DNA from: Mycolicibacterium litorale
GTDB lineage: Bacteria > Actinomycetota > Actinomycetes > Mycobacteriales > Mycobacteriaceae
Reading direction: 5' to 3'
Assembly: GCF_010731695.1 (NCBI RefSeq)
Contig: NZ_AP022586.1
Span: forward strand, 3,968,001-4,032,000
Length of the DNA stretch: 64,000 nucleotides
Shown here: positions 10,401-58,984 of the stretch, one piece after another
Layout of the letters: each line of letters begins with the position of its first letter
How positions within the stretch are numbered: position 1 is the first letter of the stretch
Notes under the pieces: model-generated
Databases searched by the model: none
What the model saw: only the letters and a program-made list of their open reading frames with translations
Told to the model about the DNA's origin: nothing
Program-made: the position numbers and the translations under genes

Positions 10401-11552
10401 CAGTTCCAGTTCGTGATGCGCCTGCTCGTCGAGGCCCGGGGTGCGGTTACGCAGTTCGGCCAGCGGGCCGAGGATCAACGTCAGCGGCGTGCGGAACTCG
10501 TGGCTGATGTTGGAGAAGAACGTCGTCTTGGCCAGATCGAGTTCGGCCAGTTCCTCGGCCCGCCGCTGCTGCGCCCGGTAGCTGCGGGCGCTGCCGATCC
10601 CGGCGGCGAGGTGCCCGGCGACGAGTTCGACGAACCCGCGGTAGCCCGCGTCGAGCCGCCGGTGAGAGTTCAGGCCGGCGACGAGGAAGCCGACCGGATC
10701 GGCGCCCTGCTGCAGCAGCGGCACCACGAGCGCCTGCGCGGGCGGGTCGGGCCACACGCCGCGCGGCAGGCGCAGCGACTCGCCGTCGACGTCGAGCAGC
10801 ACCGATTCACCCTGAGCGGGCAGTTCGACGGGCCACACCGAGAGTCCTTGTGCGGACAGCGTTTCCGGAGCCGCCGGCGGTCCAGGCGCGATCCCGCTGG
10901 CCGCGGCGAGCCGCGCATCGCCGCTGTCGTCGAACAGATAGGTGAGGGTGAACGGCAGGTCGTAGAGGTTTCCGCTGAGCTGTTCAGCGGCGAAGGCCAG
11001 CATCTGCTCCTCGGTGCGCACGACGCTCGGATCCGATCCGAGGTCGCGCAGGGTCGCCATCCGGCGCTCGGCGATGACCCGCTCGGTGTCCTCGCTGACC
11101 ACGCACAGCATGCCGACGACGCGGCCGCCGTCGTCACGCAGCGGGCTGTAGGAGAAGGTGTGGTAGGTCTCCTCGGAGTATCCGGACCGTTCGAGGAACA
11201 ACAGCAGCGCCACATCCCAGGTGGCGTGGCCGGTCGCGAGCACCGATTCGATCCGCGGGCCGATGTCGGGCCAGATCTCCGCCCACACCTCGCTGGCCGG
11301 GCGGCCCAACGCCCAGGGGTACTTGCGTCCCAGCGTGTCCCGGCGGTAGGCGGCGTTGCAGAAGAACGTCAGCTCTGGACCCCACGCCATCCACATCGGG
11401 AAACGCGACGACAACAGGATGCTGACCGCGGTGCGCAGGCTCTGCGGCCAGGTGGCGGGCGGACCGAGCGCGGTCGCCGCCCAGTCGACCTCGGCGAGAT
11501 GCGCGCCCACCTCCGGGTCGGCGGCGAAAAGCGCGCGCGCCGAAGAGGTCAA
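7419..11552 (-). CDS. Multidomain PAS-GAF-histidine kinase-receiver-PAS-PP2C-HATPase signalling protein
   Basis: This protein of about 1377 aa combines a complete hybrid histidine kinase with a partner-switch module. Domains in order, approximate residues: PAS (50-165), GAF (180-330), HisKA with SHEFRTPL (phospho-His about 350), HATPase, receiver with ADDNADMRS and phospho-Asp in VVSDVMMPR (about 670), PAS (755-870), GAF-like (885-1000), SpoIIE/PP2C phosphatase with VGGDWYDVVD and VGDCVGHD (1020-1240), and an RsbW-like kinase with GEAVANAIEHGH (1260-1377). The chosen start is TTG 11552, preceded by GGGGAGG; an upstream in-frame TTG at 11582 is the alternative. It probably controls an alternative sigma factor through the downstream STAS protein. 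No transmembrane helix is seen, so sensing is likely cytosolic. Confidence 0.9.
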   Translation of the reverse strand: MTSSARALFAADPEVGAHLAEVDWAATALGPPATWPQSLRTAVSILLSSRFPMWMAWGPELTFFCNAAYRRDTLGRKYPWALGRPASEVWAEIWPDIGPRIESVLATGHATWDVALLLFLERSGYSEETYHTFSYSPLRDDGGRVVGMLCVVSEDTERVIAERRMATLRDLGSDPSVVRTEEQMLAFAAEQLSGNLYDLPFTLTYLFDDSGDARLAAASGIAPGPPAAPETLSAQGLSVWPVELPAQGESVLLDVDGESLRLPRGVWPDPPAQALVVPLLQQGADPVGFLVAGLNSHRRLDAGYRGFVELVAGHLAAGIGSARSYRAQQRRAEELAELDLAKTTFFSNISHEFRTPLTLILGPLAELRNRTPGLDEQAHHELELVHRNGLRLAKLVNTLLDFSRIQAGRMQARFEPVDLAAVTAELASVFRSAVERAGLEFTVDCPPLAEPVYVDRDMWEKVVLNLLSNALKFTLEGAVTVRVAHEGGEAVVTVADTGVGIAEADLPRLFERFHRIQTTDARSTEGSGIGLALVKELVGLHGGTITAQSEEGRGTTFTIGMPYGATHLPPDDVAPPRRVSAVSDIADPYVQEALRWLPTEPNAGVDAGVTGAVSGSADAGARVLIADDNADMRSYLTGLLHGAGYEVTAVTDGHEALESVRADIPDLVVSDVMMPRLDGLGLVAALRTEPRTAALPVLLLSARAGQEASIEGLQAGADDYLVKPFAAAEFLARVRANVALARLRNHHNRWRTALIDSLQEAFFVCDEDGAIVEINTAFTEILGYGPEGLPYQPVQPWWPDPDTDPDGYRLTSRAFSGVLEQIHGDHTFPVVHRDGHRVWVSASFNPAEDPDTGRRVTVGTFRDVTAEHYTVQRESALAALNAQLVDADTLDGALHAAVGELLRLWQARRVLAVTFPAPHAPDSDAVPDVICAGEPARWRELPARHRSAITALRDADLLTTDTSEYGTAGITMQHPRGVLVLWIELLEQRPFTPEDHTLLTVLASRLGQGLSRVHQLDQQRETALTLQHAILGPARLPRGFTVRYQPATRPLQVGGDWYDVVDLDGGCIALIVGDCVGHDLDAATVMGQLRSACRALLLDHPSPGAALGGLDRFAARLPGARCTTVWCAVLNPDTGELVYSSAGHPPPILVDADGTVRTLDEARGFALALRPDEQRPEGRVTLSARATLLLYTDGLVERRRASLDTGIGRAADLVAEGRAAALDHVADELMSRLAPEGGYQDDVALLLYRQPAPLDMVFPARNEFLSSSRGALRRWLAQAGVGPDQAMNVLIAAGEAVANAIEHGHRDRPDGFVTLRATAMVDRLYVSVLDTGSWKPPRTKADTRRGRGVALMEGLMDDVTIRPGDDGTAVHLNARII

Positions 11553-36674: not shown

Positions 36675-36774
36675 CTCGCGAGTGTAGGTCTGACGGTGGC
36701 GCCCCGCGGTGATGTCGGCCGGGCCGGTGTGCCAAAGTCGGTGCCACAACACATCACATGGGGAGGGCTCGGGC

Positions 36775-37614
36775 ATGGGCACCTATGCGGTAACGGGTTC
36801 GGCATCGGGAATGGGACGCGAAACGGTCGACCGGTTGCGGGCGGACGGTCACCGGGTCATCGGCGTCGATCTGAAAGAGGCCGACGTGGTCGCCGACCTG
36901 TCGACCCACGACGGACGCGCACGGGCGGTCGCGCAGGTGATCAGTGCAGCGGACGGTCACCTCGACGGCGCCGTGCTCGCCGCGGGTATCGGGCCCGGCA
37001 ACGGCGCGGGACGGGCGCGGCTGATCGCCGAGGTGAACTATCGTGGCGTCGTCGAACTGCTCGAGGGTTGGCGACCCGCGCTGGCGGCTGCCGGCAATGC
37101 GAAAGTCGTTGTCATCTCCAGTAATTCCACCACCACGACGCCGATGGTGCCCGAGCGCGCGGTGAAGGCGCTGCTCGCCGGCGACGTCGACAAGGCGGTT
37201 CGCGCGGTGCGGCTGTTCGGACCGGTGGCGCCGGCGCTCATCTACGCGGCGTCGAAGATCGCCGTCAGCCGCTGGGTACGGCGCCATGCGGTCCGGCCGG
37301 AGTGGGCGCGCGCCGGTATCCGGTTGAACGCGTTGGCACCCGGGGCCATCATGACGCCGCTGCTCGAGGAGCAGTTGGCGTCGCCGCGGCAGGCCAAGGC
37401 GGTCCAGCGGTTCCCCGTCCCGGTGGGCGGTTTCGGGGACGCCGGTCAACTCGCCGACTGGATCCGGTTCATGCTGTCCGACGCGGCCGACTTCCTCTGC
37501 GGCAGTATCGTCTTCGTGGATGGAGGCACCGACGCCCACTTCCGTCCGGACGACTGGCCCGAGCCGGTTCCCGCCCGCCGGCTCGTGGGGTACCTCAGGC
37601 GGTTCCGCAACTAG
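36775..37614 (+). CDS. Classical SDR family oxidoreductase
   Basis: The 279-aa protein has a short N-terminus with TGSASGMGRETVDRL, no extra mycofactocin loop, AAGIGPG in place of NNAG, and catalytic YAASKIAVSRW. It ends with an IVFVDGGTDAHFR motif. The start is ATG 36775 after GGGAGGG. It resembles 3-alpha-hydroxysteroid dehydrogenase/carbonyl reductase-like SDRs, but the substrate is not deducible. It stands alone. Confidence 0.87.
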   Translation: MGTYAVTGSASGMGRETVDRLRADGHRVIGVDLKEADVVADLSTHDGRARAVAQVISAADGHLDGAVLAAGIGPGNGAGRARLIAEVNYRGVVELLEGWRPALAAAGNAKVVVISSNSTTTTPMVPERAVKALLAGDVDKAVRAVRLFGPVAPALIYAASKIAVSRWVRRHAVRPEWARAGIRLNALAPGAIMTPLLEEQLASPRQAKAVQRFPVPVGGFGDAGQLADWIRFMLSDAADFLCGSIVFVDGGTDAHFRPDDWPEPVPARRLVGYLRRFRN

Positions 37615-37716
37615 GCGCACGCGTCTGCTCGGGCGTCGCGCAGATCGAGGACACGGATCCGCAGCAAGCAACCCCCACAACATCAGCATCGCCACGACGA
37701 ACAGCAGGTCGCTCAT
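37611..37716 (-). pseudogene. Candidate small membrane peptide, reading frame disturbed
   Basis: ATG 37716 overlaps the stop of the preceding small frame (ATGA) and begins MSDLLFVVAMLMLWGLLA, a good membrane helix. Unshifted, the frame continues for 300 codons antisense to the SDR, which is implausible. Removing one G from the GGGGG run would give a 34-residue peptide ending RVLDLRDARADACA at 37611, beside the convergent SDR stop. Either a sequencing/indel event or a chance frame explains this. Confidence 0.38.
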
Positions 37717-37891
37717 CGGTCCGCCGGTCCGGTGTGTCTGACGTCCGCCTCACCGGCGGCCATGTCGTTGTACACATGCCACCACGACGCCTCGAAGGCC
37801 ACGGGCGTGAGTCCCCCTCCCTGCGCGCGATGTCGGCGGCTGCGACCCGGTGAGCGAGCTCCTGCAGCCGACGTGCTTCCCGATACGTCAC
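37713..37891 (-). pseudogene. Candidate 59-aa gene with a one-base frameshift in a G5 run
   Basis: From GTG 37891 the frame reads MTYREARRLQELAHRVAAAD, and a second frame continues GLTPVAFEASWWHVYNDMAA to a TGA at 37713 that overlaps the next ATG. The two parts join if one base is added to the C5 run at 37813-37817. The joined product would be 59 aa. The protein-like composition across the junction suggests a real, recently frameshifted gene. I do not recognise a family. Confidence 0.45.
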
Positions 37892-37930
37892 GGAATTCGG
37901 TGGCGCGGCAGCCGCGCCCGAATCGATTCC

Positions 37931-37974
37931 CGTAAACAAACGCCTCGGGGGCGTCAACAAACCGTCAAGAACCG
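37931..37974 (+). promoter_or_regulatory. Three phased direct repeats upstream of kdp
   Basis: CGTAAACAAACG (37931), CGTCAACAAACC (37952) and CGTCAAGAACCG (37963) are related direct repeats, 21 and 11 bp apart, on one face of the helix. They lie 63 to 106 bp upstream of the first small kdp ORF. Phased direct repeats are typical of OmpR-class response-regulator sites, which would fit KdpE. A candidate -10 element TAGCTT is at 37997-38002. Confidence 0.5.
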
Positions 37975-38036
37975 GTTTCCGCCCGCAAACCGGGTCTAGC
38001 TTCGGCTCTCGTCCGATATCGAGTGGAACGGGAGTC

Positions 38037-38123
38037 ATGGTGTCCGTAGTGGTCTACCTGGTGCTGACGGTCGCGATCTTCGCGCTGTTCGGCCTGGTGC
38101 AGAAGTTGGTGGAGCGGCTGTGA
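38037..38123 (+). CDS. 28-aa single-helix membrane peptide upstream of kdpF
   Basis: From ATG 38037 the frame encodes [20 protein letters not shown] plus QKLVERL, one membrane helix with a basic C-terminus. Its TGA overlaps the kdpF GTG (GTGA), the same coupling that joins kdpF, A, B and C. It resembles KdpF in size and shape but is a separate peptide, so this operon has two such subunits. It may stabilise the KdpFABC complex or act in its control. It is too short for similarity to be decisive. Confidence 0.68.
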
Positions 38124-38209
38124 GCGCCGCCAACGGCATCGGATTGGGGCTGGCGATCCTGATCGCGCTCTTCATGGCCGCGGCGCTGCTGTTCCCGGAG
38201 AGGTTCTAG
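38120..38209 (+). CDS. kdpF: KdpF, small subunit of the KdpFABC potassium pump
   Basis: The 29-residue peptide from GTG 38120 has one membrane helix ([19 protein letters not shown]) and the ALLFPERF tail typical of actinobacterial KdpF. KdpF stabilises the KdpABC complex in the membrane. The start overlaps the preceding peptide's stop and its TAG overlaps the kdpA GTG. Confidence 0.85.
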
Positions 38210-39879
38210 TGACATCGACCGTCGCGGGGATCGTCTTCCTCGCCTCACTGATCGTCGTGATCGCCGGCCTGCACGTGCCGCTCGGCGACTACATGTACCG
38301 GGTCTACAGCTCCGACAAGCACTTGCGGGCCGAACGGGTGGTCTACCGCCTGATCGGCGCGAACCCCGGAGCCGAGCAGACGTGGGGTGGCTACGCCCGC
38401 GCCGTGCTGGCGTTCTCCGCGGTCAGCGTGACGTTCCTGTTCGTGTTCCAGCTCGTGCAGGGCAAGCTGCCGCTGCACCTTGACGAGCCGGGCACCGAGA
38501 TGACACCGGCGCTGGCGTGGAACACCGCGGTCAGCTTCGTGACCAACACCAACTGGCAGGCCTACTCGGGTGAGTCCACCCAGGGGCACCTGGTGCAGAT
38601 GGCCGGCTTGGCCGTGCAGAACTTCGTCTCCGCCGCGGTCGGGATGGCCGTCGCCATGGCGTTCGTGCGTGGCCTGGCTCGGCGCAGCACGGGCGAACTC
38701 GGCAACTTCTGGGTGGACCTGGTGCGCGGCACTCTTCGTGTGCTGCTGCCGATTTCGGTCATCGGCGCGATCGTGCTGGTCGCCGCGGGGGTGATCCAGA
38801 ACTTCGGCCCGCACGACGAGGTGGTCAACACCCTCGCCGGGGCGCAGCAGACCGTGCCCGGCGGCCCGGTGGCCAGCCAGGAGGTCATCAAGGAACTCGG
38901 CACGAACGGGGGCGGGTTCTTCAACGTCAACTCGGCGCATCCGTTCGAGAACCCCAACACTTTCACCAACTGGTTCGAGATCTTCCTGATCCTGCTCATT
39001 CCGTTCGCGCTGCCGCGCACGTTCGGCCGGATGGTCGGCAGCCGCAAGCAGGGGCTGGCGATCACCGCGGTGATGGCCGTGATCGCCGTCGCCAGCGTCA
39101 GCCTGACGATGCTGTTCCAGCTGCAGGCGCACGGCACCGTCCCGACCGCGGTCGGTGGGGCGATGGAGGGTGTCGAACAGCGGTTCGGCGTGGCGAACTC
39201 CGCGGTCTTCGCGGCCGCCACCACCCTGACGTCCACCGGTGCGGTCGATTCGTTCCACGACTCCTACACCAGCCTCGGCGGCATGATGACGATGTTCAAC
39301 ATGCAGCTCGGCGAGGTCGCGCCCGGCGGAGTCGGATCGGGCCTCTACGGGATGCTGGTCCTGGCGATCATCACCGTGTTCGTCGCGGGCCTGATGGTAG
39401 GACGCACCCCGGAATACCTCGGCAAGAAGATCACCCCGCGTGAGATCAAGCTCGCCGCAACGTATTTCCTGATTACACCGCTGATCGTGCTGACCGGCAC
39501 CGCGGTCACCATGGCGATGCCGGGTCAGCGTGCCGGCATGCTGAACACAGGCCCGCACGGCCTGTCGGAGGTGCTCTACGCGTTCACCTCCGCCGCCAAC
39601 AACAACGGTTCGGCGTTCGCCGGCATCACGGTCAACACCGAGTGGTACAACACCGCACTGGGACTGGCGATGCTCTTCGGCCGCTTCCTACCGGTCATCC
39701 TCGTGCTGGCCTTGGCGGGATCCCTGGCCAGGCAGGCCAAGACACCGGAGTCGGTGGGCACCCTCCCGACGCATCGGCCGCAGTTCGTCGGCATGGTCTC
39801 CGGCGTCACCCTCATCCTGGTCGCACTCACCTTCCTGCCCATGCTGGCACTGGGCCCGCTTGCCGAAGGAATCCACTGA
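38209..39879 (+). CDS. kdpA: KdpA, potassium-binding channel-like subunit
   Basis: The 556-aa membrane protein is the normal KdpA length. Seen: [12 protein letters not shown] near the start and the four selectivity-filter regions, including [31 protein letters not shown] in two halves, TSTGAVDS and [11 protein letters not shown]. It binds and conducts K+ into the pump. The start is GTG 38209, overlapping kdpF; the stop overlaps the kdpB ATG. Confidence 0.97.
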
Positions 39880-42026
39880 TGTCTGTTCCCACCATCGAAT
39901 CCGTGTCGTCGCCGGCACCAGAGCACTCGGGACAACCCAAGCGCGTCCAGGGCGGATTGCTCGACCCGACGGTGCTGTTGCACTCGCTGCCGGACGCGCT
40001 GCGCAAACTCGACCCCCGCACGCTGTGGCACAACCCCGTCATGCTGATCGTCGAGATCGGCGCGGTATGGGCGACACTGTGCACCGTCGCGAATCCCAGC
40101 TGGTTCGGCTGGCTGATCGTGGCCTGGTTGTGGCTGACGGTGGTCTTCGCCAACCTCGCCGAAGCAGTCGCCGAAGGCCGGGGCAAGGCGCAGGCCGAAA
40201 CCCTGCGCAGGACGAAGGCATCGACCACCGCGCGCCGTCTCACCGGCTGGTCGCCGACCTCACCCGGGCGTGAAGAAGAGGTCGCCGCACCCCTGCTCCG
40301 CCAGGGCGACATCGTCGTGGTGGAGGCCGGCCAGGTCATCCCCGGCGACGGCGACGTCGTGGAAGGCATTGCCTCCGTGGACGAATCCGCCATCACCGGT
40401 GAATCCGCACCGGTGATCCGCGAGTCGGGTGGGGACCGGTCCGCCGTCACCGGCGGCACCACGGTGCTGTCGGACCGCATCGTCGTGCGGATCACCCAGA
40501 AGCCGGGTGACAGCTTCATCGACCGGATGATCTCCCTGGTCGAGGGCGCCAACCGGCAGAAGACCCCGAACGAGATCGCGCTGAACATCCTGCTGTCGGC
40601 GCTGACGATCATCTTCGTGTTCGCGGTCGCGACGCTGCAGCCGTTGGCGATCTTCTCCAAGGCCAACAATCCGGGCGTGCCGGACACACTGGCGCTCGAC
40701 GGCAACGGCGTCACCGGCATCGTCATGGTGGCCTTGTTGGTCTGCCTGATCCCGACCACCATCGGCGCGCTGCTGTCGGCGATCGGCATCGCCGGTATGG
40801 ATCGCCTGGTGCAGCGCAACGTGCTCGCCATGTCCGGCCGCGCGGTGGAGGCCGCCGGCGACGTCAACACGCTGCTCCTCGACAAGACCGGCACCATCAC
40901 CCTCGGCAACCGGCAGGCCGCAGCGTTCCTTCCGCTTCGCAACGTGACGGACGGACAGCTCGCCGACGCGGCGCAGCTGTCGAGCCTGGCCGACGAGACG
41001 CCCGAGGGCCGCTCGATCGTGGTGTTCGCCAAACAGCAGTACGGGCTGCGGGCCCGCACCCCGGGTGAACTCACCCACGCCAACTGGATCGAATTCAGCG
41101 CCACCACAAGGATGTCCGGTGTCGACCTGGACGGGCTGCAGCTGCGTAAGGGTGCCGCCGCATCGGTGGCCGAGTGGATCCGCGCGGCGGGCGGCACCGC
41201 TCCCGCCCAGCTCGGCGAGCTCGTCGACAGCGTGTCCGCAGCAGGCGGCACCCCGCTGGTGGTCGGTCAGATCCGGGACGGGAAGGCGGCGGTGCTCGGC
41301 GTCATCCACCTCAAGGACGTCGTCAAACAGGGTATGCGCGAACGCTTCGACGAGATGCGCCGGATGGGGATCCGCACGGTGATGATCACCGGTGACAACC
41401 CGTTGACCGCCAGAGCCATCGCCGACGAGGCCGGCGTCGACGACTTCCTCGCCGAGGCCACGCCCGAAGACAAGATGGCGCTGATCAAGAAGGAGCAGGC
41501 CGGCGGAAAGCTCGTCGCCATGACCGGTGACGGCACCAACGACGCACCCGCGCTGGCCCAGGCCGACGTCGGCGTCGCGATGAACAGCGGTACCTCGGCG
41601 GCCAAAGAGGCAGGCAACATGGTGGACCTCGACTCCGACCCGACCAAGCTCATCGAGATCGTCGAGATCGGCAAGCAGCTGCTCATCACCCGAGGGGCGT
41701 TGACGACGTTCTCGATCGCCAACGACATCGCCAAGTACTTCGCCATCATCCCGGCGTTGTTCGTCGGCCTGTTCCCCGGACTGGATCTGCTCAACATCAT
41801 GCGGTTGCACAGCCCGCAGTCCGCGATCCTGGCCGCCGTCATCTTCAACGCGGTCGTCATCGTGGCGCTGATCCCGCTGGCATTACGCGGTGTTCGGTAC
41901 ACGCCGAGCAGCGCGTCAAAGCTGTTGACCCGCAACCTGTCCGTCTACGGCCTCGGCGGAATCATCGCACCGTTCATCGGGATCAAGCTCATCGATCTCG
42001 TCGTCCAACTCTTCCCAGGAATGTGA
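39879..42026 (+). CDS. kdpB: KdpB, P-type ATPase catalytic subunit
   Basis: The 715-aa protein starts at ATG 39879. P-type ATPase marks: [15 protein letters not shown] in the A domain, the phosphorylation site DKTGTITLG (Asp about residue 333), KGAAASV for nucleotide binding, [10 protein letters not shown] and [20 protein letters not shown] in the hinge. It couples ATP hydrolysis to K+ uptake. Start and stop both overlap neighbouring kdp genes. Confidence 0.97.
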
Positions 42027-42892
42027 CCATGTCGTTCTCCACGATCGTCCGTCAACACACCGCGGCGCTGCGGGCGCTGCTCGTGCTCACCGTGCTGCTG
42101 GGCCTGGCCTACCCCGCGCTCATCTGGCTGGTCGCTCAACTGCCGGGCCTGCGTGACAACGCCAACGGCTCGATCATCGAAGTCGACGGAAAAGCCGTGG
42201 GGAGCAGCCTGATCGGCCAGCTCTACACCGACGCCGACGGAAATCCGCTGCCACAGTACTTCCAGGGCCGGCCGTCGGCCGCAGGCGACGGCTACGATCC
42301 GATGGCCACCAGCGCCGGCAATCTCGGGCCCGAGGACATCATCGACACCCCCGACCGGACGAGTCTGCTCACCCAGGTGTGTGAACGCAGCAAGGCCATC
42401 GGCGAGCTCGACGGCGTCGATGGCGCGCGCCCGTTCTGCACCGGCGGCGGGGTCGGGGCCGTGCTGTCGGTCATCGGACCGCGTGGCGCTGACGGCAACG
42501 TCACCAACCCGACCACGGTCGTCAGCGTCAACGAGCCGTGTGAGATCACGGACCGCCCGTTCCTCGACGACTACGAGGGCGTGCGTGTCCAATGCGCTGC
42601 CGCGGGAGAGGATTACCGCCTCGGGCAGATCGTGCCGATCCGCGGCAGCGCCTCCGCCCGCCCGGAGGTGCCCGCCGACGCGGTCACCGCGAGCGGTAGC
42701 GGTCTGGACCCGCACATCTCGCCGGCCTACGCCGACCTGCAGGTCGACCGGGTCGCGGCGGCACGGGGCATCAGCCCTGAGCAGGTCCGGACCCTCGTTG
42801 CCGCCCACACCCAGGGACGCACACTCGGCTTCCTCGGCGAACCGCGGGTCAACGTCCTCGAACTGAACGTGGCGCTCGACGGCCTCGAGTGA
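42023..42892 (+). CDS. kdpC: KdpC subunit with a large Cys-containing insertion
   Basis: The 289-aa protein is about 100 residues longer than classical KdpC (about 190). The N-terminal membrane helix ([20 protein letters not shown]), [16 protein letters not shown], and the C-terminal [16 protein letters not shown] and [15 protein letters not shown] motifs are intact. Between about residues 105 and 205 lies an extra extracytoplasmic segment with four Cys (near 120, 138, 172 and 191), which could form two disulfides. The start is GTG 42023 overlapping kdpB, or ATG 42029. Confidence 0.93.
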
Positions 42893-42985
42893 CTGGGCCA
42901 ACTGCGTCGCAAGCTCGAGGACGACCCCGCCCACCCCGTCCATCTGTTGACCGAGGCGGTGATGGGCTACCGATTCCGTCCGTGA
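42893..42985 (+). pseudogene. Remnant of the 3' end of kdpE (response regulator) after deletion of kdpDE
   Basis: Directly after the kdpC stop, 30 codons encode LGQLRRKLEDDPAHP then VHLLTEAVMGYRFRP and a TGA. This matches the C-terminal winged-helix end of OmpR/KdpE-type regulators (xLRRKLE.DP..P.HLLTE.GMGYRF). No kdpD or receiver-domain sequence is present, so the sensor kinase and most of the regulator are gone. The fragment has no start codon of its own and overlaps the convergent transporter stop by 19 nt. Confidence 0.85.
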
Positions 42986-44295
42986 ACAGACCCGCGGGGT
43001 GGCACGCCGCCCTCGGTGAGGTCGGTGCCGCGCGTCTCGCTGACCCGCCAGATCGCCACAAGGCTCACCACACCGCAGCCCGCGGCCAGCGCCACCAACG
43101 GTGTCCGCGAGATCCCGTCCGCCATCAGGCTGCTGGCGATCAGCGGGGTGAAGCCGGCGCCGAGCAGGGCGGCGAACTGGTAGCCCATCGAGGCGCCGGT
43201 GTAGCGCACCCGCGTGCCGAACATCTCCGAGAACAGCGCGCCCAGCGGGGCGTACATCAGCGACTGCAGCACCTGCGCGATCACCATCGCCGCGGTGAGC
43301 AGCGGTACCGAGCCGACATCGATCAGCGCGTAGAACGGCCATGCGTAGCAGACGATGCCGATCGCGCCTGCGACGATCACCGCCCGTCGCCCGACCCGGT
43401 CCGACAGCGCTGAGAACAGCGGAATGGTGACCAGCGCCGTCGTCGACGTGAAGATCAGCGCGGTCATCACGTCGGTGCGGTGGTATCCGATCCCGGTGGC
43501 GTAGCTGATCATGTAGGTGCTGATCAGCGCCGTGAGCGCGAAAGGGCCGATCCCGACCGCGCAGGCGAGGACCAGGTTTCCCGGGCTTCGCAGCACCTCG
43601 ACGAGCGGAGGGCCTTCCGGGCGGGCGCCGGCCCGTTTCGCCTCTTCGAACACGGGACTCTCCGTGATGGACAGCCGCACATAGATCCCCAGCGCGAGCA
43701 GCAGCAGGCTGACCAGGAACGGCACCCGCCAACCCCAGGACATGAATGTTTCGTCCGGCATGAGGGTGATCGCGGTGACGACGGCCACCGACAGCAGTGA
43801 GCCGATCGGCGAACCCATCTGCATCACGCCGTTCCACGCGCCGCGGCGGTGCGGTTCGGCATATTCGGTGACCATGAGCGTCGCCCCGCCCCATTCGCCG
43901 CCGATCGCCACACCCTGGATCACGCGCAACGACACCAACATGATCGGGGCCGCGACACCTACCGCGGCGAACGTCGGCAGCACCCCGACGAGGAAGCTCG
44001 CCACCCCCATCAGGGTCATGGTCAGCACCAGCATCGACTTGCGGCCGATGCGATCACCGAAGTGTCCGAACAGGATTCCGCCGACCGGGCGGGCGACGTA
44101 CCCCGCGGCGAGCGTGCCGAAGGCCGCGATCGTGGCCACAGCGGGGTCGGAATCGGGGAAGAAGATGGTTCCGAAGACGAGCGCGCTCATCGTTCCGTAC
44201 ACGAGGAAGTCGTAGTACTCGATGGCCGTGCCGAGCAGGCTCGAGATGGCGACCCGGCGCAGCAGCGCCGGATCCGACCTCGACGTGTCGTCCAT
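42967..44295 (-). CDS. MFS transporter, metabolite:H+ symporter (ProP/MHS) family
   Basis: The 442-aa protein has 12 predicted helices. MHS family marks: LGTAIEYYDFLVYGTMSALVF near helix 1, RPVGGILFGHFGDRIGRKSML in the 2-3 loop, and QGVAIGGEWGGATLMVTEYA. Substrates of this family are organic acids or aromatic carboxylates. The start is ATG 44295. It is divergent from a TetR gene that heads the ring-degradation cluster, so uptake of the cluster's substrate is plausible. Its last codons overlap the kdpE remnant. Confidence 0.88.
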   Translation of the reverse strand: MDDTSRSDPALLRRVAISSLLGTAIEYYDFLVYGTMSALVFGTIFFPDSDPAVATIAAFGTLAAGYVARPVGGILFGHFGDRIGRKSMLVLTMTLMGVASFLVGVLPTFAAVGVAAPIMLVSLRVIQGVAIGGEWGGATLMVTEYAEPHRRGAWNGVMQMGSPIGSLLSVAVVTAITLMPDETFMSWGWRVPFLVSLLLLALGIYVRLSITESPVFEEAKRAGARPEGPPLVEVLRSPGNLVLACAVGIGPFALTALISTYMISYATGIGYHRTDVMTALIFTSTTALVTIPLFSALSDRVGRRAVIVAGAIGIVCYAWPFYALIDVGSVPLLTAAMVIAQVLQSLMYAPLGALFSEMFGTRVRYTGASMGYQFAALLGAGFTPLIASSLMADGISRTPLVALAAGCGVVSLVAIWRVSETRGTDLTEGGVPPRGSVHGRNR

Positions 44296-44421
44296 GCGTT
44301 GGCCCTTCGTTTGGTCGCGGGTCACCCCAATCCTGGCGTCCGCCGCTTCACCGACGGGGTGGAATCCCATTCATCGAGAAAGTGCTGTGTGCGGTTGTCG
44401 AACGGCTCTAACCTGCAAGCG

Positions 44422-52321: not shown

Positions 52322-52328
52322 CACGCCT

Positions 52329-52381
52329 GCGATTTGTGCACGATTTCGCGCGGTGGGCGCGCGTTTTCGTGCACAAATCGC
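52329..52381. terminator. Long perfect hairpin between convergent genes (probable bidirectional terminator or dispersed repeat)
   Basis: GCGATTTGTGCACGA (52329-52343) and its exact complement TCGTGCACAAATCGC (52367-52381) flank a 23-bp GC-rich loop that itself contains CGCGC/GCGCG. The 15-bp stem lies between the stops of convergent genes at 52321 and 52386. It lacks a T run, as is common for mycobacterial hairpins. Confidence 0.65.
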
Positions 52382-52385
52382 CCGC

Positions 52386-53396
52386 TTACTCGAAGGTGAT
52401 CACGACCTTGTCGGCCGCGCCGGGCGTGGCGACGCACTGCAATGCCTCCGCGAGCTCGTCGAAAGCAAACGTGTGACTGATGATCACGTTGTACTTCTCC
52501 CAGTTCTCGACGATGTCCTTGGTGACCTCGAAGATCTCGGTCGGATATCCCATCGATCCGACGATCGTCAGTTCATTGCTCATGACGTTCATGAAGTCGA
52601 TGCTGATGGGCTCCTTGTGGACGGCGACGACGCCGAGCTTGGCGCCGCGTTTGGCAGCGCCGAAGGCCGCGTCGATCACGGCCGGCACCCCGGCCGCATC
52701 CAGGAAGATGTCGGTGCCTGCCCTGTCAGGCCACATCGAATCACCGGGCCCGTGGAGTTCGATCAACCGCGCGGTCAGGTCCTCGTCGTGAGAGTTGATG
52801 ACGGCGTCCGCACCGACCTTCAGCGCCTTGTCCAGCCGCTCCGGCAGGATGTCGGCCACGATCACATGCCGGACGCCAAGGGATTTCAGAGCGATGGTGA
52901 TGCCGAGGCCGATCGGCCCCGCACCGAAGACCACCACTTGGTCACTCTGCCGGGGCGCCACCTGGTTCACCGCGTGACGTGCGACCGCCATGGGTTCGTT
53001 GAGCGCCGCGACCTCGTACGGGATGTGGTCGGGCACGACCTCGAGGCTCACACCGCGCACGGCATCCTTGATGAGCAGGTAGTCGGCCAGCGCGCCGGTG
53101 GACCCGCCGTTGCCGATGATGTCGTCGGCCAACGCCATCGGATTGACCACGACCCGGTCACCGACGGCGACACCGCTCACCTCGCCACCGACGTCGACGA
53201 CCTCACCGGCCGGCTCGTGACCGATCGGCATATGCCCTTGCCGCGGCGGTAGACCGCCGATGGAGATGTACAGGCTGTCGGATCCGCAGATGCCGCAAGC
53301 CCGAATACGCACCAGGACGTCTCGAGCCCCGACGGTGGGCGTCGGCACCTCGAGGACCTCGGTCTTCTCGGGAGCGGTGATGATGGCTGCTCTCAC
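52386..53396 (-). CDS. Zinc-dependent medium-chain alcohol dehydrogenase
   Basis: The 336-aa protein has catalytic zinc ligands CGICGSD and GHEPAGEV, and the NAD site VVVFGAGPIGLGITIAL. The four-Cys structural zinc loop is missing (GDRVVVNPMALADD instead), as in some threonine/sorbitol dehydrogenase-like members. The start is GTG 53396; the longer frame upstream is not coding. It lies 32 bp after the SDR and probably is the last gene of the sulfotransferase operon. Confidence 0.86.
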   Translation of the reverse strand: MRAAIITAPEKTEVLEVPTPTVGARDVLVRIRACGICGSDSLYISIGGLPPRQGHMPIGHEPAGEVVDVGGEVSGVAVGDRVVVNPMALADDIIGNGGSTGALADYLLIKDAVRGVSLEVVPDHIPYEVAALNEPMAVARHAVNQVAPRQSDQVVVFGAGPIGLGITIALKSLGVRHVIVADILPERLDKALKVGADAVINSHDEDLTARLIELHGPGDSMWPDRAGTDIFLDAAGVPAVIDAAFGAAKRGAKLGVVAVHKEPISIDFMNVMSNELTIVGSMGYPTEIFEVTKDIVENWEKYNVIISHTFAFDELAEALQCVATPGAADKVVITFE

Positions 53397-53428
53397 TGGG
53401 AGTTCCCTTCTCGTCGATGTTGTCGAGC

Positions 53429-54178
53429 TCAGAACACGCTGTAGCCGCCGTCGACGATCAGCGCAGATCCGGTGCTGTAGGACGCATTGCCGCTGCACAT
53501 GTACAGGATCGGACTCGCGATCTCGTCCGGTTCGGCGAACCGGCGGAGAAGGATGTGGTCCTCCTGGTCCTTCTTGATATCGGGGACGAGGTCCATCGGT
53601 GCGGTCATCCGGGTGGCCACGACTCCGGGGACGACGGCGTTGACCCGGATACCGTCCGCGGCCCATCGCGCCGCGAGGTTCCGAGTCAACGCCAGTACGC
53701 CTGCCTTCCCGGACCCGTACCCGGGCACCACCGGTACGGCGCGTATCGCAGCCATCGACCCGAGCATCACGACGCTCGCGCCGCCAATGGCTTTCGACGC
53801 CTTGAGCGCACCGTGCAGGCGTTCGGTCAACCGGAAGGGCGCCAGCAGGTTGAGTTCCACCGATGCGGCGAATCCGTCCGCGGTCGCTTCGTCGAGGCCG
53901 CCAGGGAAGTTGGCCCCGGCGTTGTTGATGAGGATGTCCAACTCGGTGAACGAATCAGCCAATGTCACAACGCTGCCCGGGTCAGTGAGCGCCAACTGGC
54001 GATAGTCCATCCCTGACAAGTCGGCGTCGTAGTCTTCGGGTGCCGCCTTGGTCCCGGTGATCGTGACATGTGCACCGCTGTCGCGCAGCAGCGATGCCGT
54101 CGCGTGTCCGATGCCGCTCGTGCCGCCGGTGATCAGTGCGGTCGCGCCGGTGAAGTCGAACAGAACCCGGTTGATCAT
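53429..54178 (-). CDS. SDR family oxidoreductase
   Basis: The 249-aa classical SDR has TGGTSGIGHATASLL, NNAGANFPGG, catalytic YGSGKAGVLALTRNLA and a C-terminal SALIVDGGYSVF. ATG 54178 overlaps the stop of the MBL gene (ATGA). It lacks the mycofactocin loop, so it uses free NAD(P). It follows the sulfatase-like gene, so oxidation of a released alcohol is a reasonable guess. Confidence 0.88.
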   Translation of the reverse strand: MINRVLFDFTGATALITGGTSGIGHATASLLRDSGAHVTITGTKAAPEDYDADLSGMDYRQLALTDPGSVVTLADSFTELDILINNAGANFPGGLDEATADGFAASVELNLLAPFRLTERLHGALKASKAIGGASVVMLGSMAAIRAVPVVPGYGSGKAGVLALTRNLAARWAADGIRVNAVVPGVVATRMTAPMDLVPDIKKDQEDHILLRRFAEPDEIASPILYMCSGNASYSTGSALIVDGGYSVF

Positions 54179-55419
54179 GACAGTCCCTTGATCTCTTTGC
54201 GCAGCCAGGCCGCTTCCCAGAAATTCGTGCTGCCCTGCAGCAGTGCCTCGTGCGCCGCGATCAATACCTGCCGGGCAGCGTTGTCTCCGGGATGGACCCG
54301 GTACACGATCTCGGCCAGCCGAATCGCCCGCACGGTGTCGCCGGCTGCCAGCAGGGTCCGAGCCCGTTCGAGAACCGGTGCCACACCGGCCAGTTCGAGT
54401 AGGTCGGCATCGGCGCGGTCCGGGCTGTCGGCATAGAGTTCGGTCGTGGAACGATGATGGAACCAGCCCGCGTAGGTCTCCCAGATCGCCCGGATGTTCC
54501 ACCGCACCATGCCGTAGCCTTCTCCGACTTGGAGTTCGGGCGGCAGCACGACTTCGCGCATCAGGGTGTGAACGTCCTTGCCGGCGTTCATCCCTTCGAC
54601 GGTTTTGTCGTGGATGTAGGTGACGGCGTCGCGTAGCCGAGTCAGCTCCCATTCGATCCGGTCTTTCCCGACGATCGGGCCGAAATGGCCGGTGAGCAAC
54701 GTCTCCGCGCCCAGCGCGCGGACCCGGTCGATCGATTCCGCCACCGTCAGCGCGTCCCGGTAGCGGTCACCGCGCATGGTGACCAGATTGGGGATGTGTC
54801 CGAAGAGCGCTCCGAACACGTTGCCGCACAGACAGACACCCTCGTCAGGTAGCCACACCACCAGGCTGTCGGTGGTCTCACCGCCCGGTGTCGCGTACAG
54901 CTCCAATCGGCGGCCACCCAGTTCGAGGGTGAGCTCTTCTTCGAAAACGATCGTCGGCTCCGGCACGCTCTGGGGCGGCGGGGGACCGAATCGTTGCGCG
55001 GTGCGCGTGATCGTGTCCATCACTTTGTCGACCCACGCGAAGGAGGAGTTCTGCGCGCGGAAAGCCGCCAGCACATCGTTGTCCCGCCGCCACGTCTCCC
55101 AGTTCGCTTGGGCCACGATGTCGCTGTCGGGATCGGCCACCGAGTCGATGCCGCCGACGTGGTCGACGTGTCCCTGCGTGAGGATGACGTAGCGGATCGG
55201 TGCGGTGTCGATGGCGTCGTAGTTCGCCCGATGCACCGGACCCTCGAAGCCCATCCCCGTGTTCAGCACGATCCGGCCCTCGCCGGTGGTCAGCAGGTAC
55301 GAGTTGGACAGCCCTGGGGAGAGCCAAATTCCAGGGCTGACCTCCTCGGCCGGCGCGCCCGCGCCGAGGATGTCGTCGCCGCCAGGACGGCTCAGATAGA
55401 CGGGTTCGTAGTCGGTCAT
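54175..55419 (-). CDS. MBL-fold hydrolase, alkylsulfatase-like with dimerisation domain
   Basis: The 414-aa protein has an MBL core with ILTQGHVDHVGG (the first His of HxHxDH is Gln here), ATPGGETTDSLVVWLPDEG and LTGHFGPIVG, followed by an alkyl-sulfatase-type dimerisation helix region (IRAIWETYAGWFHHRSTTEL, about 290-330) and a TPR-like tail. SdsA1-type enzymes cleave sulfate esters. The missing His may weaken a zinc site. It is coupled by ATGA to the sulfotransferase upstream and the SDR downstream. Confidence 0.83.
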   Translation of the reverse strand: MTDYEPVYLSRPGGDDILGAGAPAEEVSPGIWLSPGLSNSYLLTTGEGRIVLNTGMGFEGPVHRANYDAIDTAPIRYVILTQGHVDHVGGIDSVADPDSDIVAQANWETWRRDNDVLAAFRAQNSSFAWVDKVMDTITRTAQRFGPPPPQSVPEPTIVFEEELTLELGGRRLELYATPGGETTDSLVVWLPDEGVCLCGNVFGALFGHIPNLVTMRGDRYRDALTVAESIDRVRALGAETLLTGHFGPIVGKDRIEWELTRLRDAVTYIHDKTVEGMNAGKDVHTLMREVVLPPELQVGEGYGMVRWNIRAIWETYAGWFHHRSTTELYADSPDRADADLLELAGVAPVLERARTLLAAGDTVRAIRLAEIVYRVHPGDNAARQVLIAAHEALLQGSTNFWEAAWLRKEIKGLS

Positions 55420-56669
55420 GCTTCCTCGCGAATGTCGAAGCGGTCGAAGTAGAAGCCGAAGCGCGAACGAATCTCGTCCGGAGACCGTCCGAAGTGGCCT
55501 TTCAGCTCGTACTGCAGCCGGCCGTGCTTACCCCGTGGGTTGTCATCGAGGTAAGCGCGGAACGCCGTCTGCGCCTCCGCGGAGAACTCCGTCCCGTTGG
55601 CGGCGTACAGCCTCTCCAGGATCGACAGTTCGTTCCCGTTGAGTTGGTGGAAGGAGATGTCCAGGCTGCGCTCGGCCGCGACCAACTCCCGGTCGCGCAC
55701 ACACGCCTGCAGCAGCCGTTCGATCCGGTCCACCCAATAGTCCACCAGGCCGTATGGGTCGATTTCAGTGCGACGGATGCGATCCCCGTACGCCAGCATG
55801 GTGACGGCAGATTGGATGACGGCGACCGGATCGCGGTGGGTGAACGCCACGGTCGCGTCGGGGAAGGTGCGAATCAGTGGCCCCAGTTGTTCACAGTGTT
55901 GGGGCGATTTGAGCACCCACTGCCGCGGTCCGCGCAGGAAGGTCAGCGCCTTGAGGATCGTGCGCAGGTATCCGTAGTGCTCGTCCTGGTTCAACCCGAG
56001 ATAGAAGTCCCGCCACTGCGGAACCCGGCCGTGCCATTCCAGCACGTAGCTCGCGAAGTCGAGATCGAGGAGCTCGACCTCCTCCTCGATGGCCTGGGGG
56101 AATCTGTCGTGCATCGCCTGCACCAGCGGGGTCATCATCATCGCCGACTGGTGTTCCGCGACGCTTCGGGTGAACCTGGGGTCGACGCCGTTGACGTCGG
56201 CTCCCTCGCCGCGCAGCGGGAAAGGCTCCTGGCTCTCCCAGTACGGCAGGGCGCGCCGGCGTGCATCCGAGGCGATGAGATTCACGAGATGGGTGGTCCC
56301 CGAGCGCGGAAGGCCGACGACGATGATGGGCCGTTCGATCTCGATGTCGTGGATCTCGGGATAACGGCGCAGCAGATCGGTCAACAGCAGCCGTTGCGAC
56401 AGCAGCCGGACGATCCGATTCTGCAGGATGAGTCGGTTGAGGTTCGTGTTGCCGCTGTCGGCATCGGCGGCTCGTGCGTAGGCGTCGAGCCGTGGCCTGA
56501 AGTCAGCCGCCCCGAAATCGTCCAGCCCTGTGTACTCGATCGCCCTGCCGATGAGTACCTCCGGAGTCAGGTCCACAGCCAGAGACTCCGTGTGCTCCAG
56601 GATCTCTCGCTGCGTCGCAGTGAGAACCGGGCACGTCAGATCCTCGATGACCAGGGCACTGTCGGGCAT
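55416..56669 (-). CDS. PAPS-dependent sulfotransferase family protein
   Basis: The 417-aa protein has the 5'-phosphosulfate loop GLPRSGTTHLVNL (about 120) and the 3'-phosphate site VAFTHRDPVAVIQS (about 290), with RGPRQWVLKSPQH between. Mycobacterial sulfotransferase-like proteins of this kind act on lipids or steroids. The start is ATG 56669 after GGGAGGAG. It is the first gene of an operon whose second gene looks like a sulfatase, and is divergent from an IclR gene. Confidence 0.85.
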   Translation of the reverse strand: MPDSALVIEDLTCPVLTATQREILEHTESLAVDLTPEVLIGRAIEYTGLDDFGAADFRPRLDAYARAADADSGNTNLNRLILQNRIVRLLSQRLLLTDLLRRYPEIHDIEIERPIIVVGLPRSGTTHLVNLIASDARRRALPYWESQEPFPLRGEGADVNGVDPRFTRSVAEHQSAMMMTPLVQAMHDRFPQAIEEEVELLDLDFASYVLEWHGRVPQWRDFYLGLNQDEHYGYLRTILKALTFLRGPRQWVLKSPQHCEQLGPLIRTFPDATVAFTHRDPVAVIQSAVTMLAYGDRIRRTEIDPYGLVDYWVDRIERLLQACVRDRELVAAERSLDISFHQLNGNELSILERLYAANGTEFSAEAQTAFRAYLDDNPRGKHGRLQYELKGHFGRSPDEIRSRFGFYFDRFDIREEA

Positions 56670-56700
56670 TCGGGCTCCTCCCGCTCACCGTGAGGCGGTG

Positions 56701-56712
56701 ACGAATATTCGT
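56701..56712. promoter_or_regulatory. IclR-type operator candidate
   Basis: ACGAATATTCGT is a perfect 12-bp palindrome lying 31 bp from the sulfotransferase start and 15 bp from the IclR start. A second short palindrome, CTCACCGTGAG, lies at 56684-56694 in the same 58-bp spacer. Confidence 0.6.
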
Positions 56713-56727
56713 TGTAGTGTCTGATAT

Positions 56728-57669
56728 GTGAACGCTTCCAAGCTAGGACCGCCTCGCGAAACCGGTCAAGACCCGTCGCCTCCAACTCGCCGCGTCGTCG
56801 CCGTCGTCGAACTGCTCGCACAGGCGTCCACGTCACCGCTGACGCTCGCCGAAATATGCCGTGAGCTGCGGATCAGTCGATCCACCGGATACGCCATCCT
56901 GAGCACGCTGTGTTCGGCCGACTGGGCTGTCCGCGACCCGCTCAGTGGGAGGTACACCCTGGGCGCCGGCCTGCCGAGCACGCCGGTCAACACGCCGGTG
57001 TCGCGAGTACTGCGTGAACCCCTGCGTCGACTCTGTTCAGCGGTCGGGATGGCCGCCTGTGTCTCCGAGGTCCAGGGCGGCTTCATCGCCGTCATCGAAT
57101 CGGCGGCGCCCAACTCCGGGCGAGCCCAAGTGCAGGCCGGGCAACGGCTGCCCTTCATCGCACCGTTCGGACGTGAGTTCGTCGCGTGGGCGCCGACCGC
57201 AACGCGCCGGGAGTGGCTGGACGCGGCAGGTCCGGTCAACGACGCCTATCGCGCACGTATGCCCGAGGTACTCAAGGAGATACAGCGACGCGGATATGGC
57301 ATCGAGCGGCTCAGCGGGCCCCTCGTCAAGGTGTACACCGCGCTGCTGGCGCTGGAAGACGGCAACGAGCCGGACCCGGTGGCAGCACGACTGGCCGGCG
57401 CCGTTGCCGATCTGACGATCGTCGATGTGCTGCCCGACGAGATGGCGCAGATCGAGCAGTGTCGGATCGCGACCATCTCCGCGCCGATCTTCGACGGTCA
57501 GGGCAACGTGGTGATGTCGGTGTCTGCGCAGCCCTACCGGCAGCTCACACAGCAACACGTTCGCCGTATCGGCGATCAGGTGATCGAGTTCGGCGAGCAT
57601 GTCAAATCGCTGATTGCACAACAGCTTCTGCCTGCCGACGCCAACCCTGTCACCCCGGCGTCCCGATGA
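56728..57669 (+). CDS. IclR family transcriptional regulator
   Basis: The 313-aa protein has an N-terminal winged HTH (LTLAEICRELRISRSTGYAIL) and a C-terminal GAF-like effector domain. GTG 56728 has no ribosome site and lies 7 nt after TAGTGT, so translation may be leaderless. It is divergent from the sulfotransferase operon and upstream of a P450 (104 bp). It probably controls both sides. Confidence 0.86.
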   Translation: MNASKLGPPRETGQDPSPPTRRVVAVVELLAQASTSPLTLAEICRELRISRSTGYAILSTLCSADWAVRDPLSGRYTLGAGLPSTPVNTPVSRVLREPLRRLCSAVGMAACVSEVQGGFIAVIESAAPNSGRAQVQAGQRLPFIAPFGREFVAWAPTATRREWLDAAGPVNDAYRARMPEVLKEIQRRGYGIERLSGPLVKVYTALLALEDGNEPDPVAARLAGAVADLTIVDVLPDEMAQIEQCRIATISAPIFDGQGNVVMSVSAQPYRQLTQQHVRRIGDQVIEFGEHVKSLIAQQLLPADANPVTPASR

Positions 57670-57773
57670 GCGGACATCTTCGGCTACCCCGATGGTCGGC
57701 GACCCTACTGTCCGGTGCGTAGCCCACCGGCGCCACCCATCGACTCGTGTGGGCACCAACGGAGGTCCCACGC

Positions 57774-58913
57774 ATGTCTGAGACACGACTTCTCTACAAC
57801 CCGTTCACGCCGGAGTTCCAGAACGAACTGTGGGATGTCTACCGCACCATGCGCGACGACCACCCTGTATACCAGGACCCGAACGGCGAGTTCTACGCGC
57901 TGACCCGGTTCGCCGATGTCTGGGCCGCCGCGGCCGATCACGAGACGTTCTCCAGCCGTGTGGCGGAGGCGAACGATCTACTGCCCCAGCTCATTTTCAT
58001 CGATCCGCCGCGGCACGGCGCGCTGCGCAAGCTGGTATCCCGGGCCTTCACCGCGCGCCGGGTGACCGCCATGGAGGACACGATCAGGAAGTGCGTCGAA
58101 GCGCTACTCGACGACATCGCGACCAAGGGTGTCTGCGAATTCCAGCACGACTATGCGGCGGTCATTCCCAGCGTCGCGGTGGGCGGGATGATCGGCCTCG
58201 ACGAGCAGTACCTCGCCCCCATGCGCACCTGGACCGAGGCGTTCATCGGCCTGAACACCGACAGGGCCCTCGAAGCCGCCATGAACATCTATGCGATGTT
58301 CGCGGAATTGCTCGCGGAACGCCGTCGCAGCCCGCGAGACGATCTGATGACCGCACTACTCAACGCCGAGATCGACGGTGAACGGCTCCGCGACGAAGAA
58401 CTGCTCGGCTTCTGCCTGCTGCTGGTGTTGGGCGGCAACGACACGACAGCCAGCTTGATCGGCTCCGGCCTCGTCCTCCTCCTGCGCCACCCTGAGCAGC
58501 TCGACCTGGTGCGCCGCGACCCGTCACTGTGGCCATCGGCGATCGAGGAGACGAACCGGATGGATGCGCCCACCCAGGCGCTGCCTCGGACCGCCACCCG
58601 CGACGTCGAGCTCCACGGCGTCACGATCCCGGCCGGCTCTCGGGTGATGCTGGTGTGGGGCGCGGCCAACCACGACGAACGCGAGTTCCCTGATCCGGAG
58701 CGATTCGATGTCAGGCGAGGCGCGAAGCGTCACGCCTCGTTCGGCCACGGCGCACACTTCTGCATGGGCTCCGGGTTGGCGCGACTGGAGGCCCGCCTCG
58801 CCTTCGCGGAGTGGTTCACACGATTTCCCGAATGCGCGCTGGCAGACGAGCCCACACGCGTCACGTCCAGCTGGGCCCGCGTCTTCGAGTCCATTCCGCT
58901 GCGGCTGGGATGA
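57774..58913 (+). CDS. Cytochrome P450 monooxygenase
   Basis: The 379-aa P450 has the I-helix LVLGGNDTTASLIGSG, ExxR in EETNRMDAP, and heme loop FGHGAHFCMGSGLARLE. ATG 57774 is preceded by GGAGG. The short length is typical of soluble bacterial three-component P450s; no ferredoxin gene lies beside it. Hydroxylation of the compound handled by the neighbouring sulfotransferase operon is an inference from position. Confidence 0.92.
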   Translation: MSETRLLYNPFTPEFQNELWDVYRTMRDDHPVYQDPNGEFYALTRFADVWAAAADHETFSSRVAEANDLLPQLIFIDPPRHGALRKLVSRAFTARRVTAMEDTIRKCVEALLDDIATKGVCEFQHDYAAVIPSVAVGGMIGLDEQYLAPMRTWTEAFIGLNTDRALEAAMNIYAMFAELLAERRRSPRDDLMTALLNAEIDGERLRDEELLGFCLLLVLGGNDTTASLIGSGLVLLLRHPEQLDLVRRDPSLWPSAIEETNRMDAPTQALPRTATRDVELHGVTIPAGSRVMLVWGAANHDEREFPDPERFDVRRGAKRHASFGHGAHFCMGSGLARLEARLAFAEWFTRFPECALADEPTRVTSSWARVFESIPLRLG

Positions 58914-58984
58914 CGCCGTCGCCGAGCGCGTGCTCGGAATCTCCTCCGGCCAACTGTGTGACAGCGCGCACATCTATGTGATAC

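Follow-up and report, generated by a model that had tools for sequence, protein, structure and literature searches.

In Mycolicibacterium litorale, two kdp systems have probably been reduced to one that is made of halves of different ancestry: the 30 codons that follow kdpC are the stump of the kdpDE pair that once completed this pump operon, the pump of a second, distant kdp locus was lost while the first was kept, and the distant KdpDE would drive the remaining pump in trans. We refer to the pump site in the window (the whole stretch of DNA analysed, 64,000 nucleotides long) as locus B and to the resident or ancestral kdp site, which holds the distant kdpDE, as locus A; the genome itself, G000, is one contig of 5.58 Mb with a completeness of 100. 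The split history is well documented by comparison with related genomes, including the two sister genomes G230 and G330, which carry a B operon of matching type, and the mechanism is plausible.

The kdpE remnant behind an intact pump

The stop codon of kdpC (TGA, 42890-42892) is followed in the same frame by 30 residues and a stop (42893-42985, + strand), which correspond to the last 30 codons of a B-type kdpE. A phmmer search of these residues against proteins of solved structure matched Escherichia coli KdpE (3zq7) over residues 1-28 with an E-value of 1.7e-6, and the winged helices of RegX3, MtrA, WalR and OmpR were also matched; a protein A repeat stood at the top by whole-sequence E-value, without any individually significant stretch. 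Pfam Trans_reg_C was matched at E = 1.2e-4 over profile positions 52-77 of 77, where its 22.5 bits fall short of the cut-off of 26.2. The segment does, then, match response regulators of the KdpE/OmpR family, and the proposal of an earlier sequence-only reading, that a kdpDE deletion scar with a KdpE tail lies in frame after kdpC, stands on the translation, phmmer, Pfam and the sister genomes.

The tail is identical at 27 of 30 positions to each of the KdpE-B tails of the sisters, at 24 of 29 to the C-terminus of the intact KdpE of G000, and at 23-26 of 30 to KdpE tails more widely (the best 45 of 62 comparable ends, G000’s own KdpE included). Over 90 nucleotides it agrees with the two B kdpE genes at 74 and 75 and with G000’s own kdpE at 65, and its end, GYRFRP, is that of both KdpE-B proteins, whereas the three KdpE-A proteins end in GYRFQQ. 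Among the matches listed, many relatives carry a remnant-like segment at the end of kdpE, about 3.2 kb 3' of the kdpC end, and alignment with the kdpC-kdpD-kdpE of relatives, which had been suggested as a check, places the remnant at that point. By these comparisons a chance likeness to KdpE is excluded, and the 30 codons are a deletion scar of a B-type kdpDE, since the matching sister operons continue into complete kdpD and kdpE genes. What is left is the C-terminal end of a winged helix homologous to KdpE; the receiver and the complete DNA-binding domain are absent, so that it is a remnant and not a kdpE gene, and it is probably without function. All of kdpD and 196 codons of kdpE are gone from the B unit in G000. 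The loss looks recent, because the 30 residues include two, at positions 2 and 23, that neither B copy nor any of the 45 listed KdpE tails shares. As the tail continues the kdpC frame, a KdpC extended by stop-codon read-through (TGA followed by C) might be imagined, a reading that is scarcely credible: the join of kdpC and tail was found in G000 alone among the matches listed from 396 genomes of the genus, and the two changed residues fall where the 45 listed tails agree.

The alignment of the window with the sisters breaks off at 42883, shortly before kdpC ends, and restarts at 42893 or 42898. KdpC ends in DGLE-stop in the window and in DGKGE-stop in the sisters, so that the edge of the deletion lies in or just after the last kdpC codons and the kdpD start codon was lost; in the sisters this codon lies 5 bases 5' of the kdpC stop codon, within the stretch absent from the window, and the whole of kdpD, start codon included, is therefore gone. 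A GTG at 42889 was considered as the former kdpD start codon and rejected, as the sisters’ kdpD begins elsewhere, in the stretch that the window lacks. On the opposite strand, the gene of an MFS transporter (42967-44370, - strand) has its stop codon within the remnant, and at 42967-42991 the inserted block seems to be the source of a new C-terminus for this transporter.

The pump itself is intact, as had been claimed: kdpA (38209-39879, 556 aa), kdpB (39879-42026; the listed open reading frame starts at 39642, and 39879 is the likely start) and kdpC (42023-42892) are whole and lie on the + strand. KdpB contains the DKTGTIT and TGES motifs and passes the TIGR01497 cut-off, and KdpC passes that of TIGR00681. 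A short upstream kdpF (38120-38209, + strand, 29 aa) has the expected position and a PERF end; it is counted in the kdpFABC set by position only, as no Pfam or NCBIfam model matched it at E 0.01. The dN/dS ratios against G330 and G230 are 0.07-0.14 for kdpA, kdpB and kdpC, and those of the genes at locus A are about 0.09 for kdpE and 0.07-0.10 for kdpD; the pump genes and the A sensor genes are under purifying selection.

The window does not hold a colinear kdpFABCDE, in which kdpD lies at the kdpC end or further 3' and is followed by kdpE on the same strand. In a sample of 80 kdpC loci taken from a scan of genome contigs, kdpC, kdpD and kdpE lie on one strand at 42, kdpD lies 5' of kdpC on the other strand at 24, 7 have other or cut arrangements and 3 were too short. 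The remaining four (L037, L054, L055 and L062), all Nocardia, have a kdpFABC without kdpDE within the 4-8 kb compared on the 3' side, and thus unlinked or missing kdpDE occurs elsewhere.

A conserved hydrophobic micro-ORF of 28 aa (38037-38123, + strand) overlaps the start of kdpF. At least 14 of its 28 residues were matched in 70 of 80 kdpA-bearing sequences (the window included), and 67 of these 70 end at codon 29; seven have a stop inside the compared stretch, which in the rows listed falls only at its first position. Mean differences per 27 codons were 7.3 at the first, 4.7 at the second and 10.1 at the third codon position, and no Pfam or NCBIfam match was found. The micro-ORF appears to lie within the region that the Mycobacterium smegmatis study (PMC5401905) treats as the kdpF 5'-UTR.

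An intact kdpDE at the ancestral locus

The sequence-only reading had also denied the presence of a sensor kinase or receiver and stated that the known K+ sensor has been lost, implying constitutive, silent or rewired control. The former statement describes the window locus correctly, where the ORFs adjoining kdpC include neither kdpD nor kdpE, and fails for the genome. The search for another kdpD/kdpE, which that reading itself had recommended, found an intact pair between 36.4 and 39.8 kb of G000:C1, at a distance of about 1.6 Mb from the window’s kdpC if the chromosome is circular, and the claim of sensor loss falls with it. It is improbable that the K+ sensor is lost and that the pump is expressed constitutively, kept silent or controlled by something unrelated, given that this pair has its full domains and is under purifying selection and that the pump promoter retains a KdpE-box-like site. 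Rewired control survives in another form: an unlinked KdpDE would have to act on a pump whose ancestry differs from its own.

The KdpD family has one match in G000 (C1:38936-39565, - strand), with kdpE beside it, and KdpA also has one, the window copy. The A kdpD is an open frame of 841 codons with KdpD, Usp, DUF4118, HisKA and HATPase_c domains, and the A kdpE is an open frame of 226 codons with a receiver and Trans_reg_C; this is the domain set of a KdpD/KdpE two-component system. In NCBIfam the two proteins score highest against the KdpD and KdpE models, although at 498 and 258 bits they do not reach the equivalog cut-offs of 1123 and 325 bits. The window contains a distant two-component pair of its own (9330-10757, - strand), 31% identical to the kinase part of KdpD and 43% to the receiver of KdpE, which does not appear in the genome’s Trans_reg_C list.

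The surroundings of the distant pair are those of a complete operon in other genomes. In G066, G177, G014 and at locus L021 the order is ridA, a lysA-like gene, kdpFABC, kdpDE, a prpE-like ligase gene and DUF genes (L008 and L118 lie on the same contig, of G066; L116, L117, L119 and L120 are the loci of G177, G014, G028 and G184); G000 has ridA, the lysA-like gene, kdpDE, the prpE-like gene and DUF genes, and kdpFABC with its promoter is missing. For G028 and G184, the A flanks are partly or not present in the stretch fetched. Aligned with G177, the junction falls into two pieces, one ending at position 14780 of L116 and the other starting at 9812, with about 5 kb (pump and promoter) missing, and at most the last 2-3 codons of kdpC are left before kdpD. 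Judged by its neighbours, which are the same as in these four relatives, the distant kdpDE site is the ancestral kdp locus A with its original pump genes deleted. Among the best-scoring matches listed from the 396 genomes of the genus, in which this junction was sought together with the kdpC-tail join, only G000, G230 and G330 have it uninterrupted.

Beside locus A, at 9281-12665 of L002, lies a pair of ORFs that by eye resemble an OLD-type ATPase and a UvrD-like helicase and that we take to be reminiscent of a Gabija-type defence pair; no match to it was found in the other loci fetched for early comparison.

Ancestry of the B operon and the order of losses

The sisters preserve the state in which the A pump is lost and the B operon is whole: G230 and G330 share the A pump deletion with G000, and both hold the A kdpDE together with a complete B operon (kdpD of 839 codons, kdpE of 226). 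The window operon is 92% (G330) and 89% (G230) identical to theirs in DNA, and the B pump proteins are 90-96% identical, with KdpA at 95-96%. A single pump and a single sensor pair in G000 could in principle come from the simple relocation of either kdpDE or kdpFABC out of one operon. We rejected this very improbable reading, which the sisters with both systems contradict, as the halves differ in ancestry (between G000 and G177, KdpD and KdpE at A are 90-93% identical and KdpA 84%) and the remnant is closer to the B kdpE than to G000’s own.

Trees were built by a quick LG+G4 method with SH-aLRT support only, on chosen rows out of the fetched loci. In the tree of KdpD and KdpE (29 rows), G177 joins the three A copies (SH-aLRT 100), and the B copies of G330 and G230 cluster with G184 and 018/SC-01 (SH-aLRT 98). 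In that of KdpA, KdpB and KdpC (27 rows; the KdpB of NAZ190054 is partial there), the three B pumps form one group (SH-aLRT 100) inside a group of eight with G066, G177, G028, G014 and SCH5428379 (SH-aLRT 99). The pump tree and the sensor tree thus place B differently, so that B may have been acquired from a related mycobacterium or may be an older duplicate that other genomes have lost. Transfer is favoured, because near relatives hold single KdpA copies; 20 of 24 genomes have one (G177, G014, G066 and G028 among them), and the other four (G082, G121, G136 and G172) have two to three.

At its present position the B-type kdp block (37615-42991, + strand) stands between the gene of an SDR dehydrogenase (36709-37614, + strand) and that of the MFS transporter. 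These two genes are adjacent, with no kdp between them, in four of the seven relatives searched (G177, G268, G330 and G230), and G177 has a gap of 18 bp where the window holds 5.4 kb; by this comparison the block is derived at the SDR/MFS position. In G066 about 16 kb of a single contig separate the two genes, and in G014 and G076 the flank search of the seven relatives gave no close MFS (best 43-45%). A decayed remnant of the stretch upstream of the G330 B operon is left at 37630-37880 (77% identity), and about 0.5 kb of that stretch is absent from the window between 37880 and 37911.

How the block reached this place is less clear. The sisters’ B site, site D, is some 22-23 kb away from their SDR/MFS pair, relative to which B is oriented as in the window, and the ends of the block nearly equal those of the sisters’ unit, which suggests a move of about 28 kb within the G000 lineage, from site D into the SDR/MFS gap. 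We consider such a move rather unlikely, as site D of G000 aligns in one piece to the empty G177 site, closer than to the sisters’ flanks, and the lower dS of B suggests a separate transfer; our first reading of site D in G000 as an excision scar was dropped, since the outgroup G177 is equally empty. Between G000 and G330, dS is 0.22-0.33 for kdpA, kdpB and kdpC of B versus 0.375-0.587 for eight other genes, and between G000 and G230 the range is 0.35-0.41 for B, near the bottom of the 0.34-0.67 spanned by the other genes. Either the G000 and G330/G230 lineages exchanged B after their split or the B genes evolve more slowly at synonymous sites. Because site D is empty in both G000 and G177 and B dS is low, G000 may have received B on its own, at a time when the A deletion that it shares with the sisters had already taken place; this would make the order less sure, and the state of the sisters need not be an intermediate. 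The A deletion is found in three genomes and the B kdpDE deletion in one, and in the simplest order B would have been gained, the resident pump would then have been lost (as seen in G230 and G330 today), and the B kdpDE would have been lost last, in the G000 lineage.

Two further regions differ between these genomes. Beyond the window and near the sisters’ B site, G000:C1:4040422-4048678 is rearranged, and longer, in comparison with G330 and G177. Within the window, 6.6 kb (52322-58954) has no counterpart in the collinear region of G177, G330 and G230; its ORFs by eye include an alcohol dehydrogenase, an SDR, an MBL-fold hydrolase, a sulfotransferase, an IclR regulator and a P450-like protein.

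Proposed control in trans and comparison with known systems

We propose that KdpD and KdpE from locus A would sense low K+ and activate the B pump in trans through a KdpE box 5' of kdpF. A KdpE-box-like sequence at 37951-37972 (+ strand), identical in the B operon of G330, agrees at 16 of 22 positions with the M. smegmatis box (reference sequence from the available part of PMC5401905), a score that occurs twice in the 64 kb on both strands, this site included. Seven native promoters score 18-20 of 22 and three B promoters 16-17, and the best score 5' of the A kdpDE is 12 of 22; a scan found no sigma-70-like site there. Just downstream, a GTTT-N13-GGGTC sequence (37975-37996, + strand), seen by eye, resembles the SigF-like element GTTC-N13-GGGCA of the M. 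smegmatis PkdpF, as given in the same part of that paper. Control in trans is plausible because the KdpE-box-like site is kept at the B promoter. The A kdpDE level would no longer rise with pump induction, the usual positive feedback being lost, since these genes no longer lie behind PkdpF. Several points count against the explanation as a whole: KdpE-A and KdpE-B differ at about 14-15% of residues, several of them in the DNA-binding domain, the NCBIfam scores fall below the cut-offs, and the trees place B differently.

We lean slightly towards describing the outcome as a partial xenologous displacement, in which the incoming operon took the place of the resident pump alone and the resident KdpDE that of the incoming sensor alone. 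With the same slight preference, the resident two-component system may be said to have gained control in trans of a foreign pump promoter and to have lost its own positive feedback. Pump and sensor are usually inherited as one block, which makes it hard to ask which half survives when two copies meet; here the losses are complementary in close genomes, of the resident pump in three and of the incoming sensor pair in one. They offer a natural experiment on a two-component system that takes over a related promoter and on the effect of a cut feedback loop, and they illustrate that a regulator absent beside its operon need not be absent from the genome.

Second kdp operons and kdpFABC without adjacent kdpDE are kinds of arrangement that are already known; complementary loss of kdp halves is not described in the titles and opening lines of abstracts of the kdp literature found. 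A second kdp operon is known from the SCCmec of staphylococci. G230 and G330 are alike in this respect, with a resident kdp system plus another in each genome, whereas each copy in G000 lacks the opposite half.

A c-di-AMP riboswitch controls kdpFABC of Bacillus thuringiensis, in a report whose abstract is concerned with bacteria lacking kdpDE (PMC6488665, abstract). The likeness lies in pump genes without adjacent kdpDE; unlike those bacteria, G000 has an intact distant pair. In M. smegmatis, according to the available part of PMC5401905, KdpE binds a 22-bp box 5' of kdpF, a single kdpFABCDE transcript is made from PkdpF at low K+, and the region 5' of kdpD has basal activity only. The G000 pump operon resembles that system in its gene set, its KdpE-box-like sequence and the SigF-like element 5' of kdpF. 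The two differ in that the M. smegmatis kdpDE follows kdpC and shares the PkdpF transcript at low K+, whereas that of G000 lies about 1.6 Mb away, is of different ancestry and has been deprived of PkdpF and of nearly all of kdpC, the region 5' of kdpD.
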